The notes below the pieces were generated by a model. That model saw only the letters and a list, made by a program, of their open reading frames with translations. It did no database searches and was not told the DNA's origin. The translations under genes were made by a program, and so were the position numbers. From contig SYLI01000017.1 of NCBI GenBank assembly GCA_005809105.1, positions 1 through 35,393 of the forward strand: a stretch of DNA of 35,393 bases, read 5' to 3'. The DNA is from Verrucomicrobiales bacterium. Lineage in GTDB: Bacteria; Verrucomicrobiota; Verrucomicrobiia; Limisphaerales; UBA1100. This document shows positions 7,074 through 34,671 of this stretch, one piece after another (within the stretch, counting starts at the first letter, position 1; every line of letters starts with the position of its first letter).

Positions 7074-7131
7074 GGGGCGTTGCCATCGCGAAGGCTTTTC
7101 ATTTGGTCTCATTACGCTATTGCTTGGGCGG

Positions 7132-14626: not shown

Positions 14627-14677
14627 CCCCCCCTTTGCGATTGGCGCGTGGCTTGGCGTGTGGCAGGTTTTGTGGCG

Positions 14678-16105
14678 ATGAGGCACCACGCCTTGAATTC
14701 GGAGCATCTGGGGCTGACGCGGCGCGAACTGCTCTGCCGGGCCGGGATGGGGCTGGGCGCGCTGGCGCTGGCACCGCTTATGGGAACGGCGGCCGCTGCG
14801 GGGAGTGGGCCGCTTTCGGAGCGCGCACCGCACTTCGCGCCGCGCGCGCGACGCGTCATCCATCTCTTCATGAATGGCGGGCCCTCGCACCTGGACACGT
14901 TTGACCCCAAGCCTGCGCTGGCGCGTTACGCGGGCAAACAAATTCCCGGCGGGAACCTCGCCACCGAACGCAAGACGGGCGTCGTGATGCCTTCGCCATA
15001 CACTTTTTCCCAGCACGGGCAGAGCGGTCTGCCCGTCAGTGATATCTTCCCCCACACCGCACGCTGCATGGATGACATCTGCGTCATTCGCTCGATGAAG
15101 GCCGACGTGCCCAACCACGAGCCTTCGCTCATGCTGATGAACTGCGGCGAGGCGCGGCAGGTGCGGCCCAGTCTGGGTTCGTGGCTGACGTACGGACTGG
15201 GTACGGAGAACGAAAACCTGCCGGGATTCGTCGCGTTGTGCCCCGGCTATCCCATCCAGGAATCGCAGAACTGGCAGTGCGGCTTTCTGCCGGGCGCCTT
15301 CCAGGGCGCGCACATCGACACGCGCCGCAAGAAGCTTGAGGAGCTCATCGAACACATCCGCAATCCCGAGCAGTTGCCTCTGGCGCAGCGCCGGCAATTG
15401 GATCTTTTGCGCCGCATCAATGAACGCCACGCGCAGGCGCGGCAGAACGAGGGCGCACTGGAGGCGCGCATCCATTGTTTCGAGCTGGCCTACCGCATGC
15501 AGCGCGATGCGGCTGAGGCATTCGACTTGAGCCGCGAACCTGAGTCCATTCGCCGCATGTACGGCGACACGACGCAGGCGCGGCAGATTCTCATCGCACG
15601 GCGGCTGGTCGAGCGGGGAGTTCGATTTGTGCAGGTGTGGCACGGCGATGGCCAGCCGTGGGACAGTCACGACGATCTGGAAGTCAACCACCGGCGCCTC
15701 GCGCGCGAGTGCGACCAGGCCATCGGCGCGCTGCTGACCGATTTGAAGCAGCGCGGCCTGCTCGATGACACCCTGGTGCTTTGGGGAGGCGAATTTGGCC
15801 GCACGCCTTCGGTCGAGCTGCCCAAGGCCGGATCCAACGCCGGCAAGATCAACGGCCGCGACCACAACCACCACGGATTCACTATGTGGATGGCCGGTGG
15901 CGGCGTCAAAGGCGGCCTTGCCTACGGCGCCACCGACGAGTTTGGATTTCGGGCTGAGGAACGCCCGGTGCATGTTCATGACCTGCATGCCACGCTCCTG
16001 CACCTCATGGGATTTGACCATGAACGGCTCACCTTCCGCCACGCCGGGCGCGACTTTCGGCTGACCGATGTCCACGGCACCGTTCTCCACGACCTCATCG
16101 CTTAG
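14678..16105 (+). CDS. Tat-exported DUF1501 protein (alkaline-phosphatase clan)
   Basis: This 475-residue DUF1501 family member begins with a twin-arginine leader (LTRRELLCRAGMGLGALALAPL). The alkaline-phosphatase/sulfatase-like core follows: HLFMNGGPSHLDTFDPKP (metal-site motif), RQILIARRLVERGVRFVQV, WDSHDDL, LWGGEFGRTP and the histidine-rich GRDHNHHGFTMWMAGGGVKGG. The C-terminal HVHDLHATLLHLMG completes the family pattern. DUF1501 proteins normally accompany DUF1549/DUF1553 cytochrome-like proteins; here the gene is alone, between rex and sufT. The function is unknown, though the fold clan suggests hydrolysis of a phosphate or sulfate ester in the periplasm. The ATG at 14678 was chosen; the GTG at 14648 would add ten residues before the Tat leader. 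Confidence 0.92.
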   Translation: MRHHALNSEHLGLTRRELLCRAGMGLGALALAPLMGTAAAAGSGPLSERAPHFAPRARRVIHLFMNGGPSHLDTFDPKPALARYAGKQIPGGNLATERKTGVVMPSPYTFSQHGQSGLPVSDIFPHTARCMDDICVIRSMKADVPNHEPSLMLMNCGEARQVRPSLGSWLTYGLGTENENLPGFVALCPGYPIQESQNWQCGFLPGAFQGAHIDTRRKKLEELIEHIRNPEQLPLAQRRQLDLLRRINERHAQARQNEGALEARIHCFELAYRMQRDAAEAFDLSREPESIRRMYGDTTQARQILIARRLVERGVRFVQVWHGDGQPWDSHDDLEVNHRRLARECDQAIGALLTDLKQRGLLDDTLVLWGGEFGRTPSVELPKAGSNAGKINGRDHNHHGFTMWMAGGGVKGGLAYGATDEFGFRAEERPVHVHDLHATLLHLMGFDHERLTFRHAGRDFRLTDVHGTVLHDLIA

Positions 16106-16800: not shown

Positions 16801-18216
16801 TTAGCCCAGAACCTCGCGGATCACTTCGCCGCGCTCAAGAATGGGGCGTGGCCGGCCTTGGAAGTCTTTGACAATCGTGTGCGGTGCGATGCCCAGTGCC
16901 GAGTAGAGCGTGGCGGCGATGTCGGCGGGCGTGATGGGACGCGTAGTGGGTTCGGCCGCGTGCTTGTTTGTGGCGCCGATAACTTGGCCCGTGCGCGTGC
17001 CGCCGCCGGCAAAGAACATACTCCCGGCGGCTCCCCAATGGTCGCGTCCGCCGTTGCTGTTGATCTTGGGGGTGCGCCCGAATTCGGTGAGATATACCAC
17101 GAGCGTGCGCCCGAGCATGCCGCGTGCTTTAAGATCGGTCAGCAGTGCAGCAAAGGCCCGGTCCATCCCCGCCAGATGATAGCCGCGCCGCACCATGTCC
17201 TGTATGGGAGGATGGTTCTGCGTGGGCGCGTTATGGTTGTCCCAGATGTTGCCGTAGTCGGAGTCGTAGCCGTAGTCGACCATGACAAAGCGCGCGCCGG
17301 CCTCGACCAGTCTGCGCGCGAGCAGGCAGCGGCCGCCCAATTTCGTGCGGCCGTACTCCTCACGCACGGCGGGTGCTTCGCGGTCGAGGTCAAAGGCGTC
17401 GCGGATCCGGGCGTTTCGAGCCAGTCGCAGCGCGCTCTCAAATCCAGCGTCCTGTGCAGCCACCTCTGGCTGGCGATCCAGCCGGCGAAGCAGGGTGTCA
17501 AAACCTTCGCGCAGCCCGGCGCGCCGGTCGAGCCGGTCGCCCGTCAACTCCAGCGGCGCAGCCAGCGATTGAGGCTGCAGCTTTTCGTCGGCCAGCGAGG
17601 GCGGGTTGTCGAGTTTCTCGGCGACGGTGAAGTCCGGTTCGGCCGGCACGCCACCCACGCAGAATGGCGCGTGGTGCGCGCCCAGCCATCCGCCACGGAA
17701 GAAGTTGTACGGGGGCGGTCCGGGCCGGGTGGTGCCCGGCACGGCAATATAGCCGGGCAGGCCGCCACGCGGGCCGTGAAGGTGCGCAACGAGCGAACCG
17801 ATGTTGGGGTGCGTGTAAAGATCGCTCATCGCCACCTTGTGGCCTGAGAGCGTGTACACCTGACTCAGCAGATGGTCGTCGCTGTCGTGTGAATAGCTGC
17901 GCACCAACGCCAGCTCGTGCGCGACACGCGCAAGACGAGGCATGGTCTCGCAGAACTGCACTCCCGGAAGCGTGGTGGGGATGACACCGAGCTTGCCGCG
18001 AATCTCCGCGGGCGCATCGGGCTTGGGGTCAAACGAGTCGATGTGCGTCACCCCGCCGGCCATCCACAGAAAGATGACGGCGTCGGCGCGGGCGGCACCT
18101 GCCGCGGCGTCCAAGTGGGCGGGCAGCGCTGAGGCGGCGAAGCTGAGTGAGCCTGCGCGCAGAATATCGCGCCTGCTCCATGCGCGCCCCGGTGATGGAA
18201 ACACGGCCGCCTCCAT
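16801..18216 (-). CDS. Tat-exported DUF1501 protein
   Basis: This is a second, clearly different DUF1501 protein of 471 residues. The leader is SRRDILRAGSLSFAASALPAHL. The core shows VIFLWMAGGVTHIDSFDPKP (metal-site motif), RSYSHDSDDHLLSQVYTLSG, GGRCLLARRLVEAGARFVMVDYG, WDNHNAPTQNHPPIQDMV, VYLTEFGRTPKIN and GRDHWGAAGSMFFAGGGTRTG. The end ITPADIAATLYSALGI is typical of DUF1501. Periplasmic location is expected and the activity is unknown. No DUF1549/DUF1553 partner is adjacent; it faces the tRNA with a nine-base gap and diverges from a small secreted protein gene. The ATG at 18216 is used because the residues before it do not resemble a Tat n-region. Confidence 0.92.
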   Translation of the reverse strand: MEAAVFPSPGRAWSRRDILRAGSLSFAASALPAHLDAAAGAARADAVIFLWMAGGVTHIDSFDPKPDAPAEIRGKLGVIPTTLPGVQFCETMPRLARVAHELALVRSYSHDSDDHLLSQVYTLSGHKVAMSDLYTHPNIGSLVAHLHGPRGGLPGYIAVPGTTRPGPPPYNFFRGGWLGAHHAPFCVGGVPAEPDFTVAEKLDNPPSLADEKLQPQSLAAPLELTGDRLDRRAGLREGFDTLLRRLDRQPEVAAQDAGFESALRLARNARIRDAFDLDREAPAVREEYGRTKLGGRCLLARRLVEAGARFVMVDYGYDSDYGNIWDNHNAPTQNHPPIQDMVRRGYHLAGMDRAFAALLTDLKARGMLGRTLVVYLTEFGRTPKINSNGGRDHWGAAGSMFFAGGGTRTGQVIGATNKHAAEPTTRPITPADIAATLYSALGIAPHTIVKDFQGRPRPILERGEVIREVLG

Positions 18217-18306
18217 GGCCGCAGTATGCGCCTCACGTGTGGCCCGGCAAGGCCAAAGGCCACTTCGGGGCTTGCGCGGTGGGCACGGCACAGCCATGCT
18301 CGGAGT

Positions 18307-18768
18307 ATGCAATCACTACGGGGACTCCTGCTATGGGCCTTTGCCTCAGGGCTGATGTTGACGGCCCTTCGCGCAGCCGATGCGCCCACCGAGAAGGAAC
18401 GGTTCGACCAGTTCACCAAGGCGATGTCGGGCGTCAAGTTCTCAGGCCATTTCACCGTTGCCGGTCAGGAAGGCGCGCCGGCCAAAGAGGAGTACACCAT
18501 CCTCGAGGTGAAGAAACTCCCCCAAGGCGATCTGTGGCTTTTCCGGGCGCGGGTTAAATTTGGCAAGACGGACGTGACGGTGCCGATGCCCCTTCCGGTC
18601 AAGTGGGTGGGAAACGTCCCGGTCATCGCGATGGACAACGTGGCCATCCCGGGGCTGGGCACTTTCAGCTCGCACGTCGTGATTGAAGGCAACAAGTACG
18701 CGGGCACTTGGGTGCATGGCAAAGTCAGCGGGCACCTTTTTGGCGTGGTGGAAAAACTGCTCCCGTAA
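18307..18768 (+). CDS. Small secreted beta-rich protein of unknown function
   Basis: The 153-residue product starts with a Sec-type signal peptide (MQSLRGLLLWAFASGLMLTALRAADAP). The mature part (about 128 residues) alternates short polar and hydrophobic stretches, which predicts beta strands: EEYTILEVKKLPQGDLWLF, RVKFGKTDVTVPMPLPVKW, TFSSHVVIEGNKYAGTW, HGKVSGHLFGVVEKL. The pattern is reminiscent of a lipocalin-like or calycin barrel. It looks like an uncharacterised protein type shared by Planctomycetes and Verrucomicrobia, but I cannot name a family. The gene sits 39 bases before the large M28 peptidase gene on the same strand and could be co-transcribed with it. The coding nature is supported by the signal peptide and the tight fit between neighbours. 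Confidence 0.8.
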   Translation: MQSLRGLLLWAFASGLMLTALRAADAPTEKERFDQFTKAMSGVKFSGHFTVAGQEGAPAKEEYTILEVKKLPQGDLWLFRARVKFGKTDVTVPMPLPVKWVGNVPVIAMDNVAIPGLGTFSSHVVIEGNKYAGTWVHGKVSGHLFGVVEKLLP

Positions 18769-21762: not shown

Positions 21763-23973
21763 TTACAGCCGCTGAAAGAGTTCGAGGAGCCGCTCGCGAT
21801 TGAATCCGGGCGGATCGTGGTCGAGCAGCCACTGCACATCCTCTTTCGCCGCGGCGTTGCGGCCCAGCTTCATCTGCATGAGCGCGCGGTTGAGACGTTC
21901 GCCGGCGGCCGTGGGGTCGAGCAGCAGAAGCGTGTCCAGATAGCGCAGCAGGGTGGCGGGCGGTTCGCGATCGTTGGAGATGGAAATGAGATTGCGCAGC
22001 ATGCGCACGATGATGGCGCGCTTAGTGGCCGGCTCCAGATCCTGATCGCGCAGCGGGCCGTCGCCCTCGCGCCGCGCCAGAGCCGCGGCCTCGGCGCGGG
22101 AGAGCAGCCGGGCGCCATCGTAGGCGTCGATTAACTGGACTGGTTGTCCCGGGCGGAGGTGGCCGACGACAAAGTGGCCGGGCAGGGGAATGCCCGCCAG
22201 CTTGAGCCCCAGCCGCTGGCCAATTTCCATGTAGAGCACGGCAAGCGTGATGGGGATGCCCTCGCGGTCGTCGATGACCTCGTTGAGGTAGCTGTTGGCG
22301 CGGTGATAGTAGTCGCCGCGGCTGCCGTGATATCCGTTCTGCTCAAAGAGGTGGCGGCCCAGTGCGGCGAGCTTTACCGTGGCATTGGCGTCGGCGGGCA
22401 GCGTGGACTGGATGTCCGCGGCCATGCCATCCACGAGGCCCAGATAGTGCGGCACGTCCACGTCGGGATTATCCAGGCGCGATACCAACAGGGCTGCACG
22501 CAGGAGGTTGATCTTTTCCTCGGGCTTGGAGAGCTCAGCATGCAGGTCGTTCTGCAGGGAAGTTTCGTGGAGGCGTTGGGCCAGCGCGCGCAGGTGTCGC
22601 GCCTGTTCTTCCATCCGGTCGGCGCGGCTGCGCAGCAATCCCTGCGCGGGGGCGGCATTGGTCTTGAGTCGAGCCATCAGCACGGCGTCCGCCTCGGCGC
22701 GGGGTTCCCATCCATCCACAGCCTTTGTGATGAGGGCGAGCGCTTCGGGTGTTGTGGCCAAATCGGCGAGCTGTGCGCCCGCACGGAAGTTTCTAAACTG
22801 CGCCTTGGTATCGCGAAACTTGGCCAGTCCAACTTTGCCGTGTGGCAAACCGCCGTCATCGAGCTGGTACGCAAGCTGGCCGTTGATGTGACAAATGATC
22901 TGCTGCTTCTCATGGCGAACTCGGAGCGTGTTCCAATCCCCGGGGCGATAGGCGGGGTGCGCCTGATCCTTGAGGATGACCCAGTTGAAGACCGTCGGGC
23001 CATCAAAGCGCGTGAGGCGCAGCTTGCCCGCACTCGGGTAGAAGCCGTAGTGCCGTTGGTCGCCATCGCTTCCAAAGACCAAGCCGGCCGCGCCCGCTTC
23101 GTCGTCGAGCTTGAGGGTCACTTCCAGCTCCTGCGCGCCATCGAGCTGAGCCGCCTGCCAGAGGCACAAGGCGCGCCCGCCAAAGCCGCTGCCTGGGTCG
23201 CTGACGCTGATGCGTCCTGCGCGCTGGCTCCAGCTTGCGCCCATCAGGGGCTGCCATTCGCGCGGGTTAAGGCGGCCCAGCGTGAGCCAGCGATCCATCG
23301 TCGTGGGGTTGGGTTTGTCCAGCAGGGGCTTGAGCGCGTTGATGGGCACCGCGAAACCCAGGTTGGCCGTCACCATGGATTTCATCGTCATCACACCGTG
23401 GACGTTGCCCTTCAAATCCAGCACGGGGCCGCCGCTGTTCCCCGGTTCCACGGGGATGGCGATTTGCAGCATGGTTCCCATTTCCATTTCCCGGCGGGCC
23501 GAGAGCACTCCCTGCACGACGCTTCCGACGAGTCCCATGGGGTTGCCGATGGCCAGAAAGGGCGCGCCGGTGGGCAGCTTGTCCGAATCGCCCAAGGGAA
23601 GCGGCACCAAGCCCGCCGCCTTGACGCGCAGCACGGCCAGATCGCGCTGGCGATCCCATGCGTGCACGGCTTCCACGGCCACTTCGCGGTTGTCGGCCAG
23701 TCGCACCTGAATGGCGCGGCCCTCCTCGATGACATGCAGGCAGGTGGCAATGAGGTTGGTGCCCACGACAAACCCCGTTCCTGAGCCTTCGCGCGCGCCC
23801 GCCCGGCTGGCGTGGCTGACGGTGACCACCGACGCCTTTACGCGCGCGGCAAGCGCTTCGACCGGCAGCGTTGCATTATTTTGATCGGCCGCCGCGCAGG
23901 TGGACGCGGGCTCAAGGTGGGCCACCCAGCAGGCAAGCCAGAGGAGGCAGGGGACGCGAAGGCCCGATTGCAT
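21763..23973 (-). CDS. Trypsin-like protease / lectin-fold / SirB1-like transglutaminase fusion
   Basis: This 736-residue exported protein has a signal peptide (MQSGLRVPCLLWLACWVAHL), an HtrA-type serine protease domain (about 38-220) with triad His80 (TCLHVI), Asp111 (RDLAVL) and Ser180 (PGNSGGP), and no PDZ domain. Residues 240-400 look like a concanavalin/DUF1080-type beta sandwich (GLVFGSDGDQRHYGFYP, WNTLRVRHEKQQIICHINGQ). A helical stretch leads to a SirB1/transglutaminase-like domain (about 470-640) with NSYLNEVIDDREGIPITL (560-577) and PGHFVVGH (598-605), then TPR-like helices to the end. In the SirB1 part the usual transglutaminase Cys seems to be missing, as in most SirB1 proteins. 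The combination is unusual. The ATG at 23973 is chosen because the signal peptide starts there. It converges on the M28 peptidase gene (21 bases). Confidence 0.88.
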   Translation of the reverse strand: MQSGLRVPCLLWLACWVAHLEPASTCAAADQNNATLPVEALAARVKASVVTVSHASRAGAREGSGTGFVVGTNLIATCLHVIEEGRAIQVRLADNREVAVEAVHAWDRQRDLAVLRVKAAGLVPLPLGDSDKLPTGAPFLAIGNPMGLVGSVVQGVLSARREMEMGTMLQIAIPVEPGNSGGPVLDLKGNVHGVMTMKSMVTANLGFAVPINALKPLLDKPNPTTMDRWLTLGRLNPREWQPLMGASWSQRAGRISVSDPGSGFGGRALCLWQAAQLDGAQELEVTLKLDDEAGAAGLVFGSDGDQRHYGFYPSAGKLRLTRFDGPTVFNWVILKDQAHPAYRPGDWNTLRVRHEKQQIICHINGQLAYQLDDGGLPHGKVGLAKFRDTKAQFRNFRAGAQLADLATTPEALALITKAVDGWEPRAEADAVLMARLKTNAAPAQGLLRSRADRMEEQARHLRALAQRLHETSLQNDLHAELSKPEEKINLLRAALLVSRLDNPDVDVPHYLGLVDGMAADIQSTLPADANATVKLAALGRHLFEQNGYHGSRGDYYHRANSYLNEVIDDREGIPITLAVLYMEIGQRLGLKLAGIPLPGHFVVGHLRPGQPVQLIDAYDGARLLSRAEAAALARREGDGPLRDQDLEPATKRAIIVRMLRNLISISNDREPPATLLRYLDTLLLLDPTAAGERLNRALMQMKLGRNAAAKEDVQWLLDHDPPGFNRERLLELFQRL

Positions 23974-23979
23974 GCCGCG

Positions 23980-23999
23980 CAAGATAGCGTGCGCTCTTG
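23980..23999. repeat. Interrupted inverted repeat in the divergent gap
   Basis: CAAGA (23980-23984) pairs with TCTTG (23995-23999) and GCG (23987-23989) with CGC (23992-23994), leaving TA unpaired on one side. It lies just upstream of the protease-fusion start in the 108-base gap shared with the DUF3500-like gene and might bind a regulator. Chance occurrence is not excluded. Confidence 0.25.
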
Positions 24000-24081
24000 G
24001 GTGGGCGAAGTCCAAAGTATCCCCGAAGAAACTTCCCAGTTTGTGCTGGCCAAAGTGGCGGGGCGGCCTAGGGTTTCATTC

Positions 24082-25092
24082 ATGAACACACCTTCTTCCC
24101 ATGCGCCGGAGCCATGCACCTGTTCCGGATTAAACCGCCGGGATTTCATCCGCCATGCCGGCACCGGGCTCGCCGTGGCGGGTCTGGCTGGCGCGGCCGT
24201 TGCCCCGGCGCTGGACGTCGCGCTAAAGCCCGTGGCCAGTGAGACGCTGGCGGCCACGCTCTTTAAATCGCTCTCGGAGAAGCAGCGCGCCTCGCTGTGT
24301 TTTTCCTTTGACCACGAGCTGCGCTCCAAGGTGGATAACAACTGGCATATTACCAAGTCGACCGTGGCGGACATGACCAAGGATCAGCAGGACATGGTGA
24401 AGGCCATCTTCGATGGGCTGCACAGTCCCGAATACCGTGAGACGGTTTACAAGCAGGTCGTGCACGACGCGGGCAAGGCTGGGTTTGGTGGCTCTGCCGT
24501 GGCGTTCTTCGGCGAGCCGGGCACGGGCAAGTTTGAGTTTGTCTTCACGGGGCGCCACGTGACGCGCCGCTGCGACGGAGATTCGGTGGCGGGCGCAGCG
24601 TTCGGCGGCCCGATTTTCTACGGGCACGCGGCCAAGGAGTTCAACGAGACGGCCGACCATCCGGGCAACGTGTACTGGTTTCAGGCCAAGCGCGCGAACG
24701 CGCTGTATCAGGCGCTGGATGGCAAGCAGCGCAAGGCGGCGCTGCTGGGCGAGTCGCGCGGAGAGAATGGAACTGACACGATCAAACTCAAAGGCAAGTC
24801 GGCCAGCATGGAAGGACTCCGCGTGGGCGAGATGACACCAGACCAAAAGGGTTTGGTTAAAAAGGTCATGGCCGACCTGCTGGCACCTTTCCGCAAGGCC
24901 GATGCAGATGAAGCGATGAAGCTCATCGAGAAGAGCGGGATGGACAATCTGCACATGGCCTTTTTCCAGAAGGAAAACATCGGCGACGACGAGACGTGGG
25001 ACGTGTGGCAGATCGAAGGGCCCGCCATGCTGTGGTATTTCAGGGGAAAACCGCACGTGCACACTTGGGTGCATATTCGCGAGACGGCGTAA
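24082..25092 (+). CDS. Tat-exported DUF3500-like protein
   Basis: The 336-residue product carries a twin-arginine leader (LNRRDFIRHAGTGLAVAGLAG), so it is exported folded. The rest follows the DUF3500 layout: an opening helix LSEKQRASLCFSFDHELR, MTKDQQDMVKAIF, the central FFGEPGTGKFEFVFTGRHVTRRCDGD, AAFGGPIFYGH, a second LDGKQRKAAL helix, MTPDQKGLVKKVM, and the end VWQIEGPAMLWYFRGKPHVHTWVHI. The histidines in TGRH and near the C-terminus (HVHTWVH) could bind metal, but no activity is known for the family. It diverges from the protease-fusion gene (108-base gap) and is closed by a strong terminator, so it is probably a single-gene unit. A Cys-rich start (EPCTCSG) before the RR motif is slightly unusual. 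Confidence 0.8.
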   Translation: MNTPSSHAPEPCTCSGLNRRDFIRHAGTGLAVAGLAGAAVAPALDVALKPVASETLAATLFKSLSEKQRASLCFSFDHELRSKVDNNWHITKSTVADMTKDQQDMVKAIFDGLHSPEYRETVYKQVVHDAGKAGFGGSAVAFFGEPGTGKFEFVFTGRHVTRRCDGDSVAGAAFGGPIFYGHAAKEFNETADHPGNVYWFQAKRANALYQALDGKQRKAALLGESRGENGTDTIKLKGKSASMEGLRVGEMTPDQKGLVKKVMADLLAPFRKADADEAMKLIEKSGMDNLHMAFFQKENIGDDETWDVWQIEGPAMLWYFRGKPHVHTWVHIRETA

Positions 25093-25112
25093 CGCCAATA
25101 AATCCTCTGCAG

Positions 25113-25143
25113 CGCCCGGCCCTGATGCCGGGCGTTTTTGTTT
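25113..25143 (+). terminator. Rho-independent terminator after the DUF3500-like gene
   Basis: A perfect eight-base-pair GC stem (CGCCCGGC at 25113-25120 with GCCGGGCG at 25127-25134) has a six-base loop and is followed by TTTTTGTTT. It separates the DUF3500-like gene from the downstream cytochrome-like cluster. Confidence 0.92.
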
Positions 25144-25206: not shown

Positions 25207-27837
25207 ATGAGTGCCTGCTTGCCGCTGCGGTTTCTTCTGTTCAGCGTGGCAGGTGTTGTGCTTTTGGCCGACGCGGCCGATGCGCCGCCTCGCGGCAATG
25301 CCACGGCACCTCTCGCAGCCGTAGCCGTCGAATGGAAGCTCGACGTGGCGTCCATTCCCAAAGGCCTCGTGCAGGTTCAGCTCGTCGAGGGCATTGGCGA
25401 GGACTGGACGCTCAAGGCGGGCAAGCTCACGGAAGCGTTCGCTGAGCCCGCGTTTGCTTTTCCCCATTTGCCCACGTCCTACGCCGCGGGTGGCGCGCGC
25501 GGCGAACGTGCCAGCCCCACGTTGCTTCGAGCCGCTGCGCTCATCAGGCTTCCCGCCGGCGAGCATCGCATCCTCCTGCGAGCCCGCTCGGCCGCGCGAC
25601 TGAGAGTGGATGGACGCATCGTGGTCTCCACGCCGTTTATTAAGCGTAACTCCAGCGGCCATGAAGAGCTTCCCACACTGCCGCCGCCCTTGACTCCCGA
25701 ACTGCGTGCGCTTCGGCTGGGCCATCAGGAATCGGTAGCCACGTTCATCAGCACTGGTGCCGAGTGTGTCTTCGCATTGGAGGCATTCCTAGGCGGCAAG
25801 AATCTCCGGCCGGAGCCGGCCGAACTTTCAGTCGGCATTGCTGCTAAAGGTGCCGAGTTTGTCCTGCTCTCGCCTGGAGCAAAGGTGCCATTTACTGAGG
25901 AGCAAGTGGACCAGTATGCCGAGGCAGCCCGACTGCGGCATGAAGAGGACGACGCCCTTCGGCGCCGCCAACTGGCGCAACGCGACGCGCCCTACTGGAA
26001 CAAGCGGCACCAATGGGCCCGCGATGTGTGGTCCAAGAAACCGCCGCGGCCGGTGCCCACGCCCACTTCGGGATGGGGTGCCCACAATGAGATTGACCAT
26101 TTCATCAATCACAAGCTGGCGGCCGCGGGGCGCCAGTCGCAGCCACTCACCACGGCCGAGTCTTTCCTGCGCCGCGCTGCGTTGGACATCAGGGGCGTCG
26201 TGCCGTCGCCTTCCGAGATCGCGGCCTTCCAAAATGATTCGGGCCAAGGCAGCCGGGCTCGGGCCATTGACCGCCTGCTTGCGGACTTGGGATGGGCCGA
26301 CCACTGGACGGCGTACTGGCAGGATGTGTTGGCGGAGAATCCCAATATCCTGAAGCCAACCCTCAACAACACCGGGCCCTTCCGCTATTGGCTGCACGAG
26401 GCGCTCTCCGACAACAAACCCGCGGATCGATTTGTTACCGAGCTCATTCTCATGGAGGGCAGCGCCCATTATGGCGGCGCGGCGGGATTTGGCATGGCGG
26501 CAGAAAACGACGCGCCCATGGCCGACAAGGCCCAGATTCTCGGTCAGGCTTTCCTGGGTCTACAGATGAAATGCGCGCGGTGCCACGACGCCCCGTTTCA
26601 TCCCACCGACCAACGGGACCTCTTTGGCCTTGCAGCGATGTTGAGGCGTGCCCCGCAGGAAGTTCCCGCCACCAGCTCGGTGCCTGCCGCCAGCGCCCGT
26701 GGCAAAGTGGAGGTCAGCCTCAAGCCGGGGGCGAAGGTGCCGCCCGCATGGGGATTTCACTCCCTGTCCAAGGCGGATGTTCCGCAGGAAATGCTGCGCC
26801 GGGCCGATGACACGCGCGAACGCATGGCGCTCTTGGTGACGGGGCCTGCCAACGAACGATTTGCCCAAGTGATGGCAAACCGCCTTTGGAAGCGGTATCT
26901 GGGCTGGGGGCTGGTCGAGCCGGTGGAAGACTGGGAGCACGCCCAGCCCTCGCATCCTGAGCTGCTCGATTGGCTGGCGCGCCAGCTTGTGGCCAGCGGC
27001 TACGACCTTAAACACCTCGCCCGCCTCATTCTCAACTCCCATGCCTACCAGCGCCAGGCCGACCCTGCCTTCACGCGCCCGGGCGAACCGGCAAGCCGGC
27101 TTTTCGCAGGCCCGGCTCGCCGCCGTCTTTCGGCAGAGCAAACGGTGGACTCGCTCTTCGCCATCGCGGGAAAGTCGATGGGAGTGGAAGAGCTGAACAT
27201 GGACTTGGATGGGCGGCGGCCCGTGACCGAACATTTGAACTTAGGCGTCCCGCGGCGCGCGTGGCAGTTTGCTTCTCTCTCCAACGAGCGCGACCGGCCC
27301 GCACTGGCCATTCCCAAGGCACAGACGGTGGTGGATTTGCTGAAAGCTTTTGGCTGGCGTGATGGTCGGCAGGATCCGGTCACCGACCGCGAAATCGCGC
27401 CGAGTCCGCTGCAGCCGGGGACGCTGGCCAACGGTGTTGCCGGCCGCCGCGCCACGCAGCTTTCCGAGGACAGCGCCTTCACCGAATTGGCGCTGGGCGC
27501 CCATGCGGTGGAGGGCCTGATCGAGGCAGCCTGTCTGCGCGTCCTTTCCCGAAAACCGACTGTCGAGGAAGCCGGAATGTTTAGCGAGTACCTGCGCGAG
27601 GGATTCACAGGCCGCGTGGTTGCCGGCGCGGCAAAAGCTGCACCGCGCCGCACGTATCACGCCGTCTCGTGGTCGAACCATCTGAGCCCGGAATCCACCC
27701 GAACCATCCTGGCGATGGAACGCGAGGCGCGTCTGGGCGATCCCCCCACAACGCGTCTGCGCGCCGACTGGCGGGAGCGTTTTGAGGACGTGCTGACGGC
27801 CTTGGTCAACTCACCCGAGTTCATTTTCATTCCATGA
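25207..27837 (+). CDS. Secreted DUF1549-DUF1553 protein lacking the PSCyt1 heme domain
   Basis: The 876-residue product has a signal peptide (MSACLPLRFLLFSVAGVVLLADAADA). An N-terminal region (about 30-220) looks like a beta sandwich, perhaps PA14-like (VQVQLVEGIGEDWTLKAG, LIRLPAGEHRILLRARSAA). It occupies the place where the PSCyt1 cytochrome domain sits in the related gene at 7132. DUF1549 follows (about 290-480) with FLRRAALDIRGVVPSPSE and a CARCH motif (456-460) before DAPFHP. DUF1553 is about 530-870 (TGPANERFAQVMANRLWKR, HPELLDWLARQL, ARRRLSAEQTVDSLFAIAG). A single heme-type motif remains. Its stop overlaps the next ATG (ATGA), coupling it to a DUF1501 gene, the usual partner. The start at 25207 lies beyond the upstream terminator; an earlier open stretch from 25138 overlaps the terminator hairpin and is not used. 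Confidence 0.9.
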   Translation: MSACLPLRFLLFSVAGVVLLADAADAPPRGNATAPLAAVAVEWKLDVASIPKGLVQVQLVEGIGEDWTLKAGKLTEAFAEPAFAFPHLPTSYAAGGARGERASPTLLRAAALIRLPAGEHRILLRARSAARLRVDGRIVVSTPFIKRNSSGHEELPTLPPPLTPELRALRLGHQESVATFISTGAECVFALEAFLGGKNLRPEPAELSVGIAAKGAEFVLLSPGAKVPFTEEQVDQYAEAARLRHEEDDALRRRQLAQRDAPYWNKRHQWARDVWSKKPPRPVPTPTSGWGAHNEIDHFINHKLAAAGRQSQPLTTAESFLRRAALDIRGVVPSPSEIAAFQNDSGQGSRARAIDRLLADLGWADHWTAYWQDVLAENPNILKPTLNNTGPFRYWLHEALSDNKPADRFVTELILMEGSAHYGGAAGFGMAAENDAPMADKAQILGQAFLGLQMKCARCHDAPFHPTDQRDLFGLAAMLRRAPQEVPATSSVPAASARGKVEVSLKPGAKVPPAWGFHSLSKADVPQEMLRRADDTRERMALLVTGPANERFAQVMANRLWKRYLGWGLVEPVEDWEHAQPSHPELLDWLARQLVASGYDLKHLARLILNSHAYQRQADPAFTRPGEPASRLFAGPARRRLSAEQTVDSLFAIAGKSMGVEELNMDLDGRRPVTEHLNLGVPRRAWQFASLSNERDRPALAIPKAQTVVDLLKAFGWRDGRQDPVTDREIAPSPLQPGTLANGVAGRRATQLSEDSAFTELALGAHAVEGLIEAACLRVLSRKPTVEEAGMFSEYLREGFTGRVVAGAAKAAPRRTYHAVSWSNHLSPESTRTILAMEREARLGDPPTTRLRADWRERFEDVLTALVNSPEFIFIP

Positions 27838-29144
27838 CGACGCCCGCCAATCCGTCCTTGTCGCGCCGCGACTTCCTTGCCGCCGGTGCGGGAGCAGCAT
27901 TGTGGCCGGCCGTGGCGGGCGCGGCGCCCGTAGCCACTCCTGCCAAATCCCTGCCCAAGGGCACTGCCGACCACTGCATTTTTCTGTGGCTGGGTGGTGG
28001 CGCGTGCCACGTGGACACGTGGGATCCCAAAGTTCGCGGTGATGCGAAACTCAAGAAGGCGGGATCCTACTACGATTCCATCGAAACCAGCGTGCCCGGC
28101 GTGCGCGTGTGCGAGCACCTGCGAGAGTCGGCGCGTGTGATGGAGTCGCTTGCGCTTCTGCGCACAGTGCATCACGACGTGGTGGACGAGCACGCCGCCG
28201 CCACCAATCGGCTGCACACGGGTCGTCCCACGAGCGGCACCATCGTGTATCCGTCGGTGGGTTCCATCGTGTCGCATGAACGCGGCAAGGTGGCTCCGGG
28301 AATCCCGGCGTATGTCGTGGTGGGGTATCCCAACTTGACGCGGGGACCGGGCTTTTTAGGCGCACGACACGGATACGTCTATCTGACCGACACGGAATCG
28401 GGGCCCGAAGGACTGACGCGTCCCGCGGAGATTCCCACCGCGCGACAGTCGGAGCGTGACCGCCTGTTGGGCGGGATGCGCCGGCGGTTTCTTGCCGCCC
28501 ATCCGCAAGACACGACGCTCTCCGACTATGACGCGGCCGTCGAGGAGGCGCAGTCGCTGACGCGCGGGGAGTTCATGAATGCCTTTCGTCTTGCGGACGA
28601 GCCCGGCGCGTTGCGAAGCCGTTACGGCGACGAGTTTGGCCAGCGCTGCCTCTTGGCGCGGCGGCTGGTGCAGCGCGGCGTGCGGTTTGTCGAGGTCTCG
28701 TTCAATCTGAATTTCATCAACGGCACCGGCTGGGACACCCACAATCAGGGACAAATCAACCAGCACCTACTGATACAGCAACTTGATGCGGCACTGGCGA
28801 CGTTGATCGCAGACTTGAAGGATCGCCGCCTGCTGCAACGCACGCTGGTGGTGGTGGCGACAGAATTTGGTCGGCCGCCAGAATTCGATGGCGGTGGCGG
28901 ACGCGGCCATTACGCCAAGGCCTTCAGCATCGTGCTGGCGGGTGGGGGGCTGCGCACGGGCCGCGCGGTGGGCGTCACCGATGAGCTGGGCAAGGTGATT
29001 TTGGAGCGGCCCATCTCGGTGCCGGATTTGCATGCCACCATCCATTGCGCGCTGGGCATCAATCCCGGCAAGGCGCTCAAGGCCGGCGACCGCCCTGTGC
29101 CCATCACCGATTTGGGCAGGCCATTGGAGGAGTTGTTCATTTGA
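27834..29144 (+). CDS. Tat-exported DUF1501 protein, partner of the DUF1549/DUF1553 gene
   Basis: This 436-residue DUF1501 protein is translationally coupled to the preceding DUF1549/DUF1553 gene (ATGA at 27834). The leader is LSRRDFLAAGAGAALWPAVAGA. The core shows CIFLWLGGGACHVDTWDPKV, RTVHHDVVDEHAAATNRLHTG, GQRCLLARRLVQRGVRFVEV, WDTHNQGQINQHLL, VVATEFGRPPEF, GRGHYAKAFSIVLAGGGLRTG and VPDLHATIHCALGI. Compared with the other two DUF1501 proteins here, the EFGR motif is followed by PPEF rather than TP, and the HH pair of the histidine-rich block is reduced to GHY. The family is placed in the alkaline-phosphatase clan and its reaction is unknown. The stop TGA overlaps a TTG start of the next gene (TTGA). 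Confidence 0.93.
   Translation: MTTPANPSLSRRDFLAAGAGAALWPAVAGAAPVATPAKSLPKGTADHCIFLWLGGGACHVDTWDPKVRGDAKLKKAGSYYDSIETSVPGVRVCEHLRESARVMESLALLRTVHHDVVDEHAAATNRLHTGRPTSGTIVYPSVGSIVSHERGKVAPGIPAYVVVGYPNLTRGPGFLGARHGYVYLTDTESGPEGLTRPAEIPTARQSERDRLLGGMRRRFLAAHPQDTTLSDYDAAVEEAQSLTRGEFMNAFRLADEPGALRSRYGDEFGQRCLLARRLVQRGVRFVEVSFNLNFINGTGWDTHNQGQINQHLLIQQLDAALATLIADLKDRRLLQRTLVVVATEFGRPPEFDGGGGRGHYAKAFSIVLAGGGLRTGRAVGVTDELGKVILERPISVPDLHATIHCALGINPGKALKAGDRPVPITDLGRPLEELFI
29126..29132 (+). promoter_or_regulatory. Ribosome binding site supporting a TTG start
   Basis: GGAGGAG inside the end of the DUF1501 gene lies eight bases before TTG at 29141, which overlaps that gene's stop (TTGA). The spacing is ideal, so TTG is preferred over the ATG at 29168, although the same bases also encode Glu-Glu in the upstream protein. 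Confidence 0.6.
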
Positions 29145-31063
29145 ATCAGGCTCCCAAGTTTTGGGGGATGCGGGCGATCTGGGCCGGCCTTTTCTGGGTC
29201 ATCGGCTCGGGCTGGGCCGCTCCGGCGCCGGTTCCCACGCCAGGAAACTTTGACAAGGACATCCTGCCGCTGCTGCGCACCCATTGTTTTGCGTGTCATG
29301 GCGACGGCCAGAAGAAGGGTGGAATCAGCTTCGACGCCATACGCACCGAGAAGGACGTGTATCGCGAGTATCAACTTTTTGAAAAGATCCGGCGACTGCT
29401 CATGGCTGATGAAATGCCCCCTGAAGGGCGCAAGCAAAGGCCCACGGCCCCGCAGCGCGAGAGTGTGGCGGCATGGATACGGCAGACACTGGATCTTCAT
29501 TACCGCACCTCGCCTCCGGATCCCGGGCGCGTCACCGTGCGGCGCCTCAATCGTGTCGAGTACAACCACACCGTGCGGGATTTGATGCTCGTGGATCTGG
29601 CGCCGGCCGCGGATTTTCCGGCGGACGACGCAGGCTACGGTTTTGACAACATTGGCGATGTGCTCACGCTTTCGCCGCTGCTGCTGGAAAAGTATCTTCT
29701 GGCCGCCGAGAAGATTTCAGAAGCGGCCGTGGCCGTGCCGCCGCGCGGTGAGGCGCTTTCGGCGCAAAAGGCCACGGCGTTTCAGCGCCGCTATTTTCCA
29801 AACCCGCCCGGCAAGGAACGGGGTGCGGCCGCCGCTCAATTCCTTCAAACATTCATGCGCCGTGCCTATCGCCGGCCCGCAACGCCTGAGGAGGTTGCGC
29901 GGGTCATGCGGCTGGCGACCGCCGCCATCACAGCCGATGGCAGCTTTGAACACGGCATCCGGGTCGCGGTTCAGGCGGTTTTAATTTCACCGCATTTTCT
30001 CTACCGATGGGAACTCGATGGGACGCCCAACAACGCGGCCGTGGCGCGGACTCTCAATGAGACCGAGCTGGCATCGCGGCTTTCATATTTTCTCTGGAGC
30101 AGCATGCCCGACGACCGCCTGTTGGACATGGCTCAGGCAGGCACATTGCGCAAGAACTTGGCCGCCGAGGTGGGGCGGATGTTGCGCGACACCAAGGGGG
30201 CGGCGCTGGCCGAGCATTTTGCCGGTCAGTGGTTGGAGCTGAGGAACCTTTCGCGCTCGCAGCCAGATGCAAAGCTCTTTCCAATGTTCAATTCAAGCTT
30301 GCGCGAGGACATGCGGCGCGAAACCACGCTGCTCTTTTCCTCCGTGATGGCAGAGAACCGCCCCGTGCACGAGCTGCTGGGGGCCGACTACACTTTCGTG
30401 AACGAACGACTGGCGCAACTCTACGGACTCAAGGATGTCCGCGGTGAGCAATTCCGGCGGGTGAGCCTGCAGGGGACAGGCCGCGCGGGGGTGCTGACGC
30501 ATGCCAGCGTGCTCACCTTGACTTCCGATCCCGGGCGCACCTCGCCCGTCAAGCGCGGCAAGTACGTGCTGGAAAACATCCTGGGAACGCCACCGCCCCC
30601 TCCGCCCCCCAATGTGCCCGAACTGCCACGGCAGGGCGAAATCAAGGGCACCTTGCGTGAGCAGATGATCGCTCATCGTCGCGATGTGGCTTGCGCAGCC
30701 TGCCATGAAAAGATGGATCCACTGGGATTCGCCTTCGAGCATTTCGATGCCATCGGCCGGCACCGAACCCATGAAAATGGTCGCCCCATCGATGCCACCG
30801 GCAAGGTGGACAACGCACTGGCCTTCGATGGCGCGGCAGAATTAAACAGTCTCCTGTTGACGCAGCGCAGGCCGGAGTTCTTGCGCTGCCTCACCGAGAA
30901 AATGCTGACCTATGCGCTGGGGCGGGGGCTGGAGTTCTACGACCGTCGCGCCGTGGCCGGAATCCTGACCAAGATGGAAAGGGAGGGGGCCCAGTTTGGC
31001 ACGCTGGTGCTGGGGGTTGTGGGCAGCCTGCCCTTTGACATGAAACGCGGCGATGGTCGCTAG
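29141..31063 (+). CDS. Secreted DUF1592/DUF1588/DUF1585-group cytochrome-like protein
   Basis: The 640-residue product has an N-terminal signal peptide (AIWAGLFWVIGSGWAAP) and a cytochrome-like domain with CFACH at residues 49-53 and a MPPEG loop. DUF1587 (VTVRRLNRVEYNHTVRDLM), DUF1595 (FLQTFMRRAYRRPATPEEV), DUF1592 (LNETELASRLSYFLWSSMPDD), DUF1588 (RAGVLTHASVLTLTSDPGRT followed by GTPPPPPPPNVPEL, then CAACH at 518-522) and DUF1585 (LTEKMLTYALGRGLEFYDR) complete the set. The seven-proline run is conserved in this family and should need EF-P for efficient translation. Genes of this group regularly sit beside DUF1552 genes, as here. The TTG start at 29141 has a good ribosome site and overlaps the previous stop; ATG at 29168 would give 631 residues. 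Confidence 0.91.
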   Translation: MNQAPKFWGMRAIWAGLFWVIGSGWAAPAPVPTPGNFDKDILPLLRTHCFACHGDGQKKGGISFDAIRTEKDVYREYQLFEKIRRLLMADEMPPEGRKQRPTAPQRESVAAWIRQTLDLHYRTSPPDPGRVTVRRLNRVEYNHTVRDLMLVDLAPAADFPADDAGYGFDNIGDVLTLSPLLLEKYLLAAEKISEAAVAVPPRGEALSAQKATAFQRRYFPNPPGKERGAAAAQFLQTFMRRAYRRPATPEEVARVMRLATAAITADGSFEHGIRVAVQAVLISPHFLYRWELDGTPNNAAVARTLNETELASRLSYFLWSSMPDDRLLDMAQAGTLRKNLAAEVGRMLRDTKGAALAEHFAGQWLELRNLSRSQPDAKLFPMFNSSLREDMRRETTLLFSSVMAENRPVHELLGADYTFVNERLAQLYGLKDVRGEQFRRVSLQGTGRAGVLTHASVLTLTSDPGRTSPVKRGKYVLENILGTPPPPPPPNVPELPRQGEIKGTLREQMIAHRRDVACAACHEKMDPLGFAFEHFDAIGRHRTHENGRPIDATGKVDNALAFDGAAELNSLLLTQRRPEFLRCLTEKMLTYALGRGLEFYDRRAVAGILTKMEREGAQFGTLVLGVVGSLPFDMKRGDGR

Positions 31064-31120
31064 CGTCTGGGTTGCGGCGGAGTGGCGATTGGGGTACATT
31101 CTGGTCAACGACAAGGTGCG

Positions 31121-32464
31121 ATGAACAATTCTTGGCAAATCCCGAGAAGGACTTTCCTGCGCGGCGTGGGCACGGCGATGGCGCTGCCGATGCTCGACGT
31201 GATGATTCCCTCTGGCGCACGCGCTGCCGACGCATCCAAGGCTCCCAAGCGGATGGCCTTTGTCTACATCCCCAATGGCGTCGTGCAGCGGCACTGGACG
31301 CCGAACGCGGAGGGCAGTTCGTTTGGCCTCCAGCGCATCATGGAACCATTGGCGCCCCACCGGGAAAATCTTTTGATCCTCACCGGTCTGGCTCATGACA
31401 AGGCTCGCGCGAACGGCGACGGCCCCGGTGACCATGCCCGCGCCAATGCGACCTTTCTCACGGGGTGTCAGGCGCGAAAGACCAGCGGCTCGGACATCCG
31501 GGCGGGGGTTTCGGTGGACCAGGTTTTCGTCCAGCAAACGAAGGAGAAGACGCGCCTGCCCTCGCTGGAGCTGAGCAGTGATGGTCCGCGCATGACGGGC
31601 AATTGCGATTCGGGCTACAGTTGCGCCTACCAGTTCAATTTGGCATGGCGCAATGAGGCCACGCCGCTGCCTCCGGAATCGAACCCGGCTTTGGTGTTTG
31701 AGCGGATGTTTGGCAACGGCAACAAGGCGCAGCAGGCCCAGAGCACCCAGCGCCGGCTTGAGACGCGCAAGAGTCTGCTCGACTTTGTAAGGGAGGACGC
31801 GCAGCAGCTGGAACGCAAGCTGGGCCGCACCGACAAGCGCAAGCTCGACGAGTACTTCACCGCCGTCCGTGAGATGGAACTGCGCGTCAATGCCATGGCC
31901 AAGGCACCGCGCGGATTGCCCGAGGGATATTCGGTGCCCGATGGAAAGCCGCGCGACTTTGGCGACCATGTCCGGATGATGTTGGACATGATGACGCTGG
32001 CGTTTCAGACCGACCAGACCCGGGTGGCAACGTACCTTCTGGCGCATGATGGCGACAACCGCAGCTACCCCCACATCGGTGTGCGCGGCGGCCACCACAG
32101 CATCTCACACCACCGCAATAATGCCGACAATCTGGAGATGCTCACCCGCATCAACCGCTATCACTGCTCGCTCTTCGCGCACTTTCTGGACCGGCTCAAA
32201 TCAGTCAAGGAAGGCGATGGCACGCTGCTGGATCACACCCTCATCGTGTATGGCGGCGCGATCGGCGACGGTGACCGCCACAGTCATCATGATCTTCCTG
32301 TCATCCTCGCCGGCAAGGGAGGTGGCGCGGTTCGTCCAGGCCGGCACGTCCGTTACCCCAAGGACACGCCGATGGCCAATCTCCTGCTCTCCATGCTCAA
32401 CATCATGGGCACCCCCACGCAGCGCCTAGGAGACAGCACGGGTTCCCTTCAAGGCCTGAGTTAA
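31121..32464 (+). CDS. Tat-exported DUF1552 (HXXSHH) protein
   Basis: This 447-residue protein starts with a twin-arginine leader (IPRRTFLRGVGTAMALPMLD). It has the DUF1552 pattern: MAFVYIPNGVVQRHW, GLAHDKARANGDGPGDHARA with FLTGC, PSLELSSD, YSCAYQFNLAW, LDFVREDAQQLERKLG and DEYFTAVREME. The signature HXXSHH is present as HSISHH at residues 326-331, likely a metal site. The C-terminus has VVYGG-like IVYGGAIGDGDRHSHHDLPV. DUF1552 proteins are the regular partner of the DUF1592 group; the preceding gene is 57 bases upstream on the same strand with no terminator between. A periplasmic location is expected and the function is unknown. The weak AAGGTG before the ATG is the only ribosome-site-like feature. 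Confidence 0.93.
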   Translation: MNNSWQIPRRTFLRGVGTAMALPMLDVMIPSGARAADASKAPKRMAFVYIPNGVVQRHWTPNAEGSSFGLQRIMEPLAPHRENLLILTGLAHDKARANGDGPGDHARANATFLTGCQARKTSGSDIRAGVSVDQVFVQQTKEKTRLPSLELSSDGPRMTGNCDSGYSCAYQFNLAWRNEATPLPPESNPALVFERMFGNGNKAQQAQSTQRRLETRKSLLDFVREDAQQLERKLGRTDKRKLDEYFTAVREMELRVNAMAKAPRGLPEGYSVPDGKPRDFGDHVRMMLDMMTLAFQTDQTRVATYLLAHDGDNRSYPHIGVRGGHHSISHHRNNADNLEMLTRINRYHCSLFAHFLDRLKSVKEGDGTLLDHTLIVYGGAIGDGDRHSHHDLPVILAGKGGGAVRPGRHVRYPKDTPMANLLLSMLNIMGTPTQRLGDSTGSLQGLS

Positions 32465-32481: not shown

Positions 32482-33411
32482 CTACCTTGTTGCGGTGGCC
32501 AGCAAGGTTTGGAAATGCGGAGCTTCTGCCTCGCGCGCCACGAGCGCGATTTCAATCGCCTTAAAGCCGGCATCTTCAAGCCACTGGTGCAGGTCGCTCT
32601 CGGCAAAACCCAGCCACGTATCCCCGTAGAGGTCGCGTGCGTTGGCAAAATCGTGCTGGAGTAGGTCCAGAATCAGAATCTGTCCGCCGATCCTCAGGAT
32701 GCGATGCGCGGCGGCGATAGCGAGTTGCGGGCTCTGCGCATGGTGCAGGGCTTGACTAAAGAGCACCAGGTCCATGCTGCGCGGCGGGATGGGGGGCTGC
32801 TCCATGTCGCCATGACGAAATTCAAGATTGCCAAGGCCATTGCGCCGGGCTTTGCGCTGGCCAAATTGAACGATGCGCCTGGAGTTATCAACGCAGACGA
32901 CTTTGCGCGCGCGCCGGGCCAGAAGCTCGCCCAGCAATCCTTCTCCCGATCCCAGATCGGCGATGTCCAGGGGCGGCAGGATGCGCAGCAGGAACTGTCC
33001 GAATGCCTGCCATGATCGGCCCGGGCCGTATCGGCGGTCATAGCGCCCGGCGACCTGGCTGAAGTAGGTCTGTGCGCGATCCGCGCGCAGTTGTAACACT
33101 CGCTTTAGGTTCACCAGATCAGACCGGTGTGTGTGGGTTTCATGGGTGCCCAAGATGGCCAGTCGAAGGCAGTCGGCGGCGCCCGGACTGGGGCTGCGGC
33201 TGAGGCGATAAAAGGTGCGCCGGCCCTCTCGGCGCGACTCGATGAGGCCCGTCTCGCGAAGCATCCCCAGATGCGTGGAAATCCTGGGCTGGCTCAGCCG
33301 GGTGATCCGCTGAAGCTCATTGACCGAAAGCTCTCCCTGTTGAAGCAGGGCCGCCAGCCTCACGCGGGTGGCATCACCGAGGACGCGCAAGCATTTGAGG
33401 ATTTGGCTCAT
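32482..33411 (-). CDS. ArsR-family regulator fused to SAM-dependent methyltransferase (SahR-like)
   Basis: The 309-residue protein has an N-terminal ArsR winged helix (about 5-75: LGDATRVRLAALLQQGELSV, recognition part LSQPRISTHLGMLRETGL, wing RREGRRTFYRLS). No cysteine metal site is evident in it. A class I methyltransferase-like domain follows (about 130-300) with the SAM loop DLGSGEGLLGELLA, the acidic VVCVDNS, FRHGDMEQ, and VLFSQALHHAQSPQ. The late segment DLYGDTWLGFAESDLHQWL is typical of this fused family. Family members next to methyl-cycle genes, including SahR, respond to S-adenosylhomocysteine or SAM. The divergent metK-ahcY pair makes this the likely role here: sensing the SAM/SAH balance and controlling both transcripts. 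Whether the domain methylates anything or only senses the ligand is unknown. The start ATG at 33411 has no Shine-Dalgarno site. Confidence 0.9.
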   Translation of the reverse strand: MSQILKCLRVLGDATRVRLAALLQQGELSVNELQRITRLSQPRISTHLGMLRETGLIESRREGRRTFYRLSRSPSPGAADCLRLAILGTHETHTHRSDLVNLKRVLQLRADRAQTYFSQVAGRYDRRYGPGRSWQAFGQFLLRILPPLDIADLGSGEGLLGELLARRARKVVCVDNSRRIVQFGQRKARRNGLGNLEFRHGDMEQPPIPPRSMDLVLFSQALHHAQSPQLAIAAAHRILRIGGQILILDLLQHDFANARDLYGDTWLGFAESDLHQWLEDAGFKAIEIALVAREAEAPHFQTLLATATR

Positions 33412-33427: not shown

Positions 33428-33494
33428 GTTGACGAGAGTTGACAATGAAATATCTTTCAATCCGGATACGTCAATATGAAATTTGGAAATCCAA
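33428..33494. promoter_or_regulatory. Divergent promoter/operator region of the ArsR-methyltransferase and metK genes
   Basis: The gap is AT-rich compared with its surroundings. Seen directly: GTTGAC repeated ten bases apart (33428 and 33438), a dyad TGAAA-TATC-TTTCA (33446-33459), and a dyad TTGGA-AA-TCCAA (33483-33494). A plus promoter can be read as TTGACG (33429-33434), 16 bases, TATCTT (33451-33456). A minus promoter can be read as TTGACG (33474-33469), 16 bases, TATTTC (33452-33447). The first dyad covers both -10 boxes, an ideal operator position for an autoregulated divergent switch. Assignment to the adjacent regulator is inference. Confidence 0.5.
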
Positions 33495-33498
33495 CCGT

Positions 33499-34671
33499 AT
33501 GACCGGCAACTTTATTTTCTCCTCTGAGTCCGTGGGCGAGGGGCATCCCGACAAGGTTTGTGACACGATTTCTGATGCGGTGCTGGACGCCTGCCTCGCA
33601 CAGGACCGACACAGCCGGGTGGCTTGTGAGGTGTACGCCAAAAGCAACCTCGTCGTGGTGGGCGGCGAAATCACCACCCAGGCGGTCCTCAACGTCAATC
33701 AGATCGTGCGCGATTCGGTCCGCGACATCGGCTACGTCCATGACGACGATGTGTTTCATGCCGACCGGGTTTTTGTGATGAACGCGCTCACCACCCAGTC
33801 ACCGGACATTGCACAGGGAGTGGATGCGCGCAAGGCCGAGGGCAAGGGTACCGGGGAACAGGGTGCGGGCGATCAAGGGCTGATGTTTGGCTATGCGTGT
33901 AACGAGACACCCGAGCTGATGCCAGCACCCATCATGTTTGCGCACCGGCTGGGAAGCGAACTCACGAGGGTTCGCAAGGCTGGAGGCGTGCCATGGCTGC
34001 GCCCGGACGCAAAGAGCCAGGTTTCGGTGCAGTACCGAGACGGCAAGCCGGTGCGGATCACTCATGTGGTGGTTTCGACACAACACGCGGCGAGCGTGAA
34101 GCATTCTGTCATCCGGGATTTCATCGTGCGCGAAATCATTCGCAAGGTGTTGCCAGAGGAAATGCTGGATCGGGGCACGGAGTACCTCGTGAACCCGACG
34201 GGGCGCTTCGTGGTGGGGGGGCCCGCGGGCGACACCGGATTGACGGGGCGGAAGATCATCGTGGACAGCTACGGCGGCATGGGAAGGCATGGAGGTGGAG
34301 CGTTCAGCGGCAAGGATCCCAGCAAGGTGGATCGCAGTGCCGCCTACATGGGTCGCTATGTGGCAAAGAACATCATTCATGCGGGACTGGCGGCGCGCGC
34401 AGAGATTCAATTTGCCTACGCGATCGGGCACCCTGACCCCGTATCGGTGTCGGTGGATACCTTTGGCACCGGGCAAGTGAGCGATGAGCGCATCACAGAG
34501 GCGGTGTGCCGTGTGTTCAACTTCAAGCCGGCCGCGATCATCCAGCAACTCAACCTGCTCCGTCCCATTTATCGCAAGACCACCAACTACGGGCACTTTG
34601 GCAAGAAGGACCGTGCCATCACGTGGGAAAGAACCGACAAGTCAGCCGACCTTCGCAAGGCCTGCCGATGA
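33499..34671 (+). CDS. metK: S-adenosylmethionine synthetase
   Basis: MetK makes S-adenosylmethionine from methionine and ATP in the cytoplasm. The 390 residues match the family length. Signatures are [18 protein letters not shown] (5-22, ATP and metal binding), the [12 protein letters not shown] hexapeptide region, [21 protein letters not shown] split over two strands, and [19 protein letters not shown] (P-loop-like). The C-terminal YGHFGKKD is also typical. The ATG at 33499 is chosen since the conserved N-terminus begins directly after it; earlier in-frame starts (from 33439) would run through the promoter region. ahcY follows after 20 bases, so the two are co-transcribed, and the fused ArsR-methyltransferase regulator is divergent. 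Confidence 0.97.

Follow-up and report, generated by a model that had tools for sequence, protein, structure and literature searches.

A row of four genes in a lake bacterium of the order Verrucomicrobiales (contig SYLI01000017.1 of assembly GCA_005809105.1, whose 35,393 nucleotides form the window analysed here) may join, in one transcription unit, two similarly built modules that are distant relatives. The genes, here called P1, P2, P3 and P4, are four long open reading frames that follow one another on the + strand. Each module would pair a c-haem protein that is mostly helical and exported by Sec (P1, P3) with a partner of the alkaline phosphatase/sulfatase type that leaves by the twin-arginine (Tat) route (P2, P4), both modules working outside the cytoplasm. 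We judge the chances for and against two related glycan-processing modules, held in one unit and acting at the cell surface or in the periplasm, to be evenly balanced. The features on which the argument draws are as follows.

25111-25136, + strand: terminator-like hairpin with a T-rich tail, 10 pairs, 8 of them G-C (consensus scan only)
25207-27837, + strand: P1, exported haem protein with PSCyt2 (DUF1549) and PSD1 (DUF1553), Sec-like signal
25348-25884, + strand: PA14-type sugar-binding beta-sandwich, P1 residues 48-226 (predicted model; missed by Pfam)
26572-26586, + strand: CXXCH haem motif of P1, residues 456-460, invariant in relatives
27834-29144, + strand: P2, DUF1501, twin-arginine signal, ATGA overlap with P1
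29141-31063, + strand: P3, with PSCyt1-like, PSD3, PSD5, PSD4, PSCyt3 and PSD2 regions; start at TTG or at ATG 29168
29285-29299, + strand: first CXXCH of P3, residues 49-53, invariant
30692-30706, + strand: second CXXCH of P3, residues 518-522, invariant
31121-32464, + strand: P4, DUF1552 (HXXSHH), twin-arginine signal; alternative GTG start at 31082
32096-32113, + strand: HXXSHH motif of P4, residues 326-331; H331 is aligned with H303 of P2

A conserved row of two exported pairs

Pfam confirmed the domain content and head-to-tail order that an original prediction, made from the letters alone, had given for the two pairs. P1 matched PSCyt2/DUF1549 (E 1.8e-38) and PSD1/DUF1553 (E 1.6e-49), P2 matched DUF1501 (E 3.4e-97), and P4 matched HXXSHH/DUF1552 (E 2.2e-105); in P3 the PSD3, PSD5, PSD4, PSCyt3 and PSD2 domains each exceeded their cut-off, together with a weak PSCyt1 match (22.9 bits, cut-off 22). 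P1-P2 thus show both Pfam domains followed by an adjacent DUF1501 gene on the same strand, as in the known PSCyt2/PSD1 plus DUF1501 pair, and P3-P4 show the PSD/PSCyt3 domains in the expected order followed by DUF1552. NCBIfam gave no match for five proteins, and Rfam found tRNA and nothing else. The translations carry Sec-like N-termini on P1 and P3 and twin-arginine N-termini on P2 and P4, in agreement with the forecast of four exported products in a tight unit, a row that relatives also keep.

The genes are closely packed. The anticipated ATGA overlap of P1 and P2 is present at 27834-27837. The TTGA overlap claimed for P2 and P3 can form if P3 starts at TTG 29141; the in-frame ATG 29168, however, yields a cleaner Sec signal and is at least as good, so the start is uncertain. 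A consensus scan for terminator-like sites found none at the P2/P3 junction, as had been claimed. The strongest such site of the region is the hairpin at 25111-25136, between a DUF3500 gene and P1, and by its sequence it separates the row from the upstream DNA. Because of the P1/P2 overlap, the short P2-P3 gaps described below, the hairpin before P1 and the lack of one at the junction, we read the row as one unit, and a single transcript probably spans it in this genome.

The survey of relatives covered 20 genomes of this family (the lake genome itself comprises 2.99 Mb in 106 contigs). Twelve of the 20 have the whole row, arranged head to tail (in one of these, G003, P4 runs past the contig end), and in four more it is consistent though broken by contig ends, P3 itself not being found in one of them, G009. 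G016 and G017, which are 71 and 59% complete, yielded neither of the pairs and no flanking methyltransferase. The orthologous proteins share roughly 50-80% amino-acid identity across the family, and the conservation of the row exceeds chance. Eleven of the 12 complete loci allow the 4-nt overlap of P1 with P2. P2-P3 gaps, measured to the nearest possible start, lie between -4 and 60 nt in all 12, with an overlap of 4 nt available in two and of 1 nt in another two. The P3 relative of G007 (L032, 7609-9492) has one in-frame TGA, either a broken gene or a sequence error.

Kinship of the Tat partners and probable kinship of the haem proteins

The original prediction had called the two pairs unrelated, which does not hold for the Tat partners and probably not for the haem proteins. 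In hhalign, the DUF1501 and DUF1552 profiles aligned over 367 columns (98.2%, E 4.5e-14) and, without the N-terminal Tat region, over 302 columns (96.3%, E 1.9e-9), while control pairs of unrelated families stayed below 1%. Two conserved His pairs coincide in the P2/P4 alignment (H303/H331 and H359/H387). By profile comparison, then, P2 and P4 are homologous. The clade of P2 is marked by a change in the GRDH motif, where 27 of its 28 rows have Gly (one has Asn) in place of the Asp present in 45 of 51 other DUF1501 rows. We considered GRGH as a lost metal ligand and dropped the idea, keeping the change only as a clade marker; going by the phosphopentomutase and iPGM motifs, the Asp is probably second-shell.

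The relationship of the haem proteins required deeper alignments. Plain homology between P1 and P3 failed with shallow ones (2%), and the first match between deeper P1-type and P3-type alignments came only from PSCyt1, a domain common to both types but absent from P1 itself; PSCyt1 was therefore trimmed from the profiles. Three stretches of the trimmed cores then matched locally (E 4.6e-4, 8.5e-4 and 4.1e-3), and their order fits one circular permutation. When the P3 profile was rotated, its end joined to its start, the best match rose from 33 to 89% (E 2.3e-6), and it dropped again, to 24-44%, in rotations that split the matching stretch; decoys made by reversal reached an E of about 0.1. In a matrix of segments, the first part of PSD1 matched PSD2 (93.9%, E 2e-7), the end of PSD1 matched PSD5 (88.6%, E 3e-6), and the CXXCH region matched PSCyt3 (57.7%, E 1e-4, over only 15 columns). 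Segment A1 of the P1-type proteins matched PSD4 weakly (3.8%), and segment A3b taken alone gave no match to PSD3. A repeat of 30 columns (E 3e-8) is common to the start of PSCyt2 and the end of PSD1, so a colinear arrangement with internal repeats may also account for the matches. On these profile matches, P1 and P3 are probably related by circular permutation.

A third family belongs in this comparison. DUF1800 matched the first part of PSD1 of P1 (90.8%, E 1e-6), the same core segment. All 79 P1-type and all 106 P3-type rows contain at least one CXXCH (in P1, C456, C459 and H460 are invariant), while none occurs in 30 DUF1800, 79 P2-type (DUF1501) or 85 P4-type (DUF1552) rows. Of eight stretches inspected, seven lay at weak Pfam matches to DUF1800 and all seven contain P1-type proteins there, and the eighth was the true DUF1800-DUF1501 pair of the lake genome. 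That DUF1800, without haem, stands beside DUF1501 suggests that serving the Tat partner is the older role of the helical core, with haem either added to it or lost. PSCyt2-PSD1, PSD3/5/4-PSCyt3-PSD2 and DUF1800 could accordingly form one superfamily, the second permuted from the first, with DUF1501 and DUF1552 as its dedicated, homologous Tat-exported partners and the row as two diverged copies in one machine. We would expect this proposal to prove right about as often as wrong; if it is right, three pair types of 'unknown' function are one ancient exported module, for which the same estimate applies jointly.

Proposed glycan processing and competing explanations

The N-terminal part of P1 points to the kind of substrate. 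On the predicted model, residues 48-226 have a PA14-type fold: VIA-align superposed them on PA14 sugar-binding domains, sugar-bound structures among them, with Z of 12-13 (in the best rows, root mean square deviation 2.5-3.0 over 128-143 residues), and the top ten Foldseek matches had E of 2.4e-4 to 1e-3. Blocks of local pLDDT (predicted local distance difference test) in this region range from 35 to 90, most above 62; no Pfam profile match to PA14 was listed at E 0.001. Because of this fold and its sugar-bound matches we favour a glycan as substrate. P1 would hold it by the PA14 domain; P2 and P4, exported folded, would act on it in a metal-dependent reaction that removes an ester or sulfate group or makes a related transfer; and the haem proteins would join partner and substrate and take off electrons from an oxidation step. 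The contact between the products, the substrate, the chemistry and the use of haem in electron transfer are what we infer. The four products may likewise be the redox/hydrolysis machine of the original prediction. The P3 model (pLDDT 87.6; predicted template modelling score, pTM, 0.86) found no convincing match in the PDB (Foldseek best E 1.8, VIA best Z 4.8); we claim no new fold for P3 from such weak matches.

Several results weigh against two glycan-processing modules in one unit. The P1 model as a whole is of low confidence (pLDDT 64.1, pTM 0.60), and its core is too poor to be compared with that of P3. The DUF1501 profile had six PDB matches, of which five were sulfatases with weak E-values (0.046-1.7, the best being 0.046), and the DUF1552 profile, which has its own His-rich motif, found no sulfatase there. 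P2 may belong to the alkaline phosphatase/sulfatase superfamily, by these matches and its conserved Asp/His sites, and P4 would be tied to it through P2 alone. P1-P2 are absent from the locus in two of the 20 family genomes, G002 and G006, which have P3-P4 alone there and a sister lineage of P1-P2 elsewhere. Relatives of P1-P2 with about 50% identity occur at nine loci in eight genomes of other families, where P3-P4 are not in view, and five P3-P4 loci of other families have no P1-P2 in view (the upstream side is short in two, L045 and L047). As the pairs stand apart in G002, G006 and other families, neither needs the other. Named genomes supplied 80 P3-like loci; 60 of these have an adjoining DUF1552 gene, and 13 have P1- or P2-type genes within 3 kb, five of the 13 being orthologous to our row (L071-L074 and L118). 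With these excluded, only 8 of 75 loci have such a neighbour, and the density of P1- and P2-type genes near compared with far gives a rate ratio of 1.85 (p 0.14). A general attraction between the pair types, being not significant on these 75 loci, was rejected. The recurrence called for by the original prediction holds within the family; elsewhere adjacency is occasional. Independent transcription, which it had named as refuting, is implied for one pair in some relatives: the upstream neighbour of P3 lies on the opposite strand in L073, L118 and G002, so P3-P4 need their own promoter there.

These results leave room for the pairs being neighbours by descent only, having met once in an ancestor of the family, stayed together through regional synteny and worked separately ever since. 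The flanking genes (M28 peptidase, DUF3500, ArsR-methyltransferase and MetK) are kept too, and since the synteny includes them we treat the row as a single arrangement passed on by inheritance and not as a set of independent cases. The lake genome has 71 DUF1501 and dozens of PSCyt2/PSD1 genes, many in arrays, so some adjacency is expected; the general enrichment is weak, and at the locus the first pair is missing from G002 and G006. Mere descent, however, fits poorly with the short distance from P2 to P3, which exceeds 60 nt in none of the 12 complete loci. It also has to contend with two other arrangements. In two further, named genomes (loci L073 and L118) a P1-P2 pair of another lineage, which groups with that of G054 in the tree (100/100), stands inverted at the same syntenic spot. 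In G005 a second contiguous row (L070, 4809-13369; P3-type, P1-type, P2-type and P4-type genes, all four confirmed by Pfam) has a P1-type/P2-type pair nested inside a P3-type/P4-type pair. By these two cases the linkage has arisen more than once; outside the orthologous rows it is occasional, not a rule. We consider inheritance without joint function a tentative possibility, somewhat short of even chances. The P1-type protein of the G005 row adds a laminin-G-like lectin domain and PSCyt1. On contig C39 of the lake genome, P1-, P2-, P1-, P2-, P3- and P4-type genes follow in order with a wider gap before the P3-type gene; this contig carries a long series of PSCyt2/PSD1 and DUF1501 genes, all pointing the same way (L051, L161-L162), with a PSD4-DUF1552 pair at its end.

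The haem proteins might instead be all that matters, as an electron path to oxygen or an extracellular acceptor, with the Tat partners structural. Invariant CXXCH motifs in P1-type and P3-type proteins are in line with this, as is the association of PSCyt genes with oxygenated upper water layers (PMC5615132). Yet P1 has just one haem motif and P3 two, DUF1800 shares the core and stands beside DUF1501 with no CXXCH in 30 of 30 rows, and the PA14 domain points to glycans; a redox-only role is thus unlikely. A multihaem/porin conduit for extracellular electrons was rejected given the same motif counts, and Pfam named no porin among the neighbours.

Known pairs and surrounding genes

P1-P2 resemble the PSCyt2/PSD1 plus DUF1501 pair of Planctomycetes and Verrucomicrobia in domains, order, spacing and export signals, but P1 has, in place of PSCyt1, the PA14-type fold that lies below the reach of Pfam, and the P2 clade has Gly where most DUF1501 proteins have the GRDH Asp. 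P3-P4 have the domains and order of the PSD3/5/4-PSCyt3-PSD2 plus DUF1552 pair and differ in being the downstream half of a row with another pair. The DUF1800 plus DUF1501 operon shares the DUF1501 partner and the match to the PSD1 segment, and differs in lacking CXXCH. Tandem DUF1800-DUF1501 pairs have been reported in Agrobacterium vitis, and such operons with chitin synthases (PMC5122149). In PMC5615132, a carbohydrate role is already proposed for PSCyt genes, and PSCyt2 and PSCyt3 genes are said usually to adjoin two families of unknown genes; PMC2754498 gives 41 copies each of two of these domains in Rhodopirellula baltica. No report of the tandem row, the pair kinship or the permutation was found in the searched literature, most subscription journals being outside its coverage. 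The single pairs are thus already known, and their kinship and the family-wide tandem appear to be new. These domains are abundant function-unknown families of Planctomycetes and Verrucomicrobia, as the DUF1501 count of this 3-Mb genome illustrates. Should the three pair types prove to be a single module that uses its partners in the same way, any one structure or assay would shed light on all of them. With just four genes and a predicted sugar-binding domain, the row is also a convenient object for an initial functional study.

Some neighbouring genes may be mentioned. The DUF3500 protein at 23812-25092 has a twin-arginine-like stretch and its gene adjoins P1 in most family genomes. On the - strand, 21763-24015 encodes an unusual protein with a trypsin-like peptidase, a transglutaminase core and TPR, found near the row in several family genomes, with a borderline match to 3-keto-disaccharide hydrolase (27.6 bits, cut-off 26.8). 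Downstream, 32482-33411 and 33439-34671 encode a fusion of an ArsR-type regulator with a methyltransferase and, next to it, MetK; these two genes stay together across the family. Not directly beside the row, the window also holds a PSCyt1/PSCyt2/PSD1 gene (7000-9891) and two DUF1501 genes (14648-16105 and 16801-18312), and in G000 four DUF1501 genes are consecutive on one strand (contig C20, 29580-34884).

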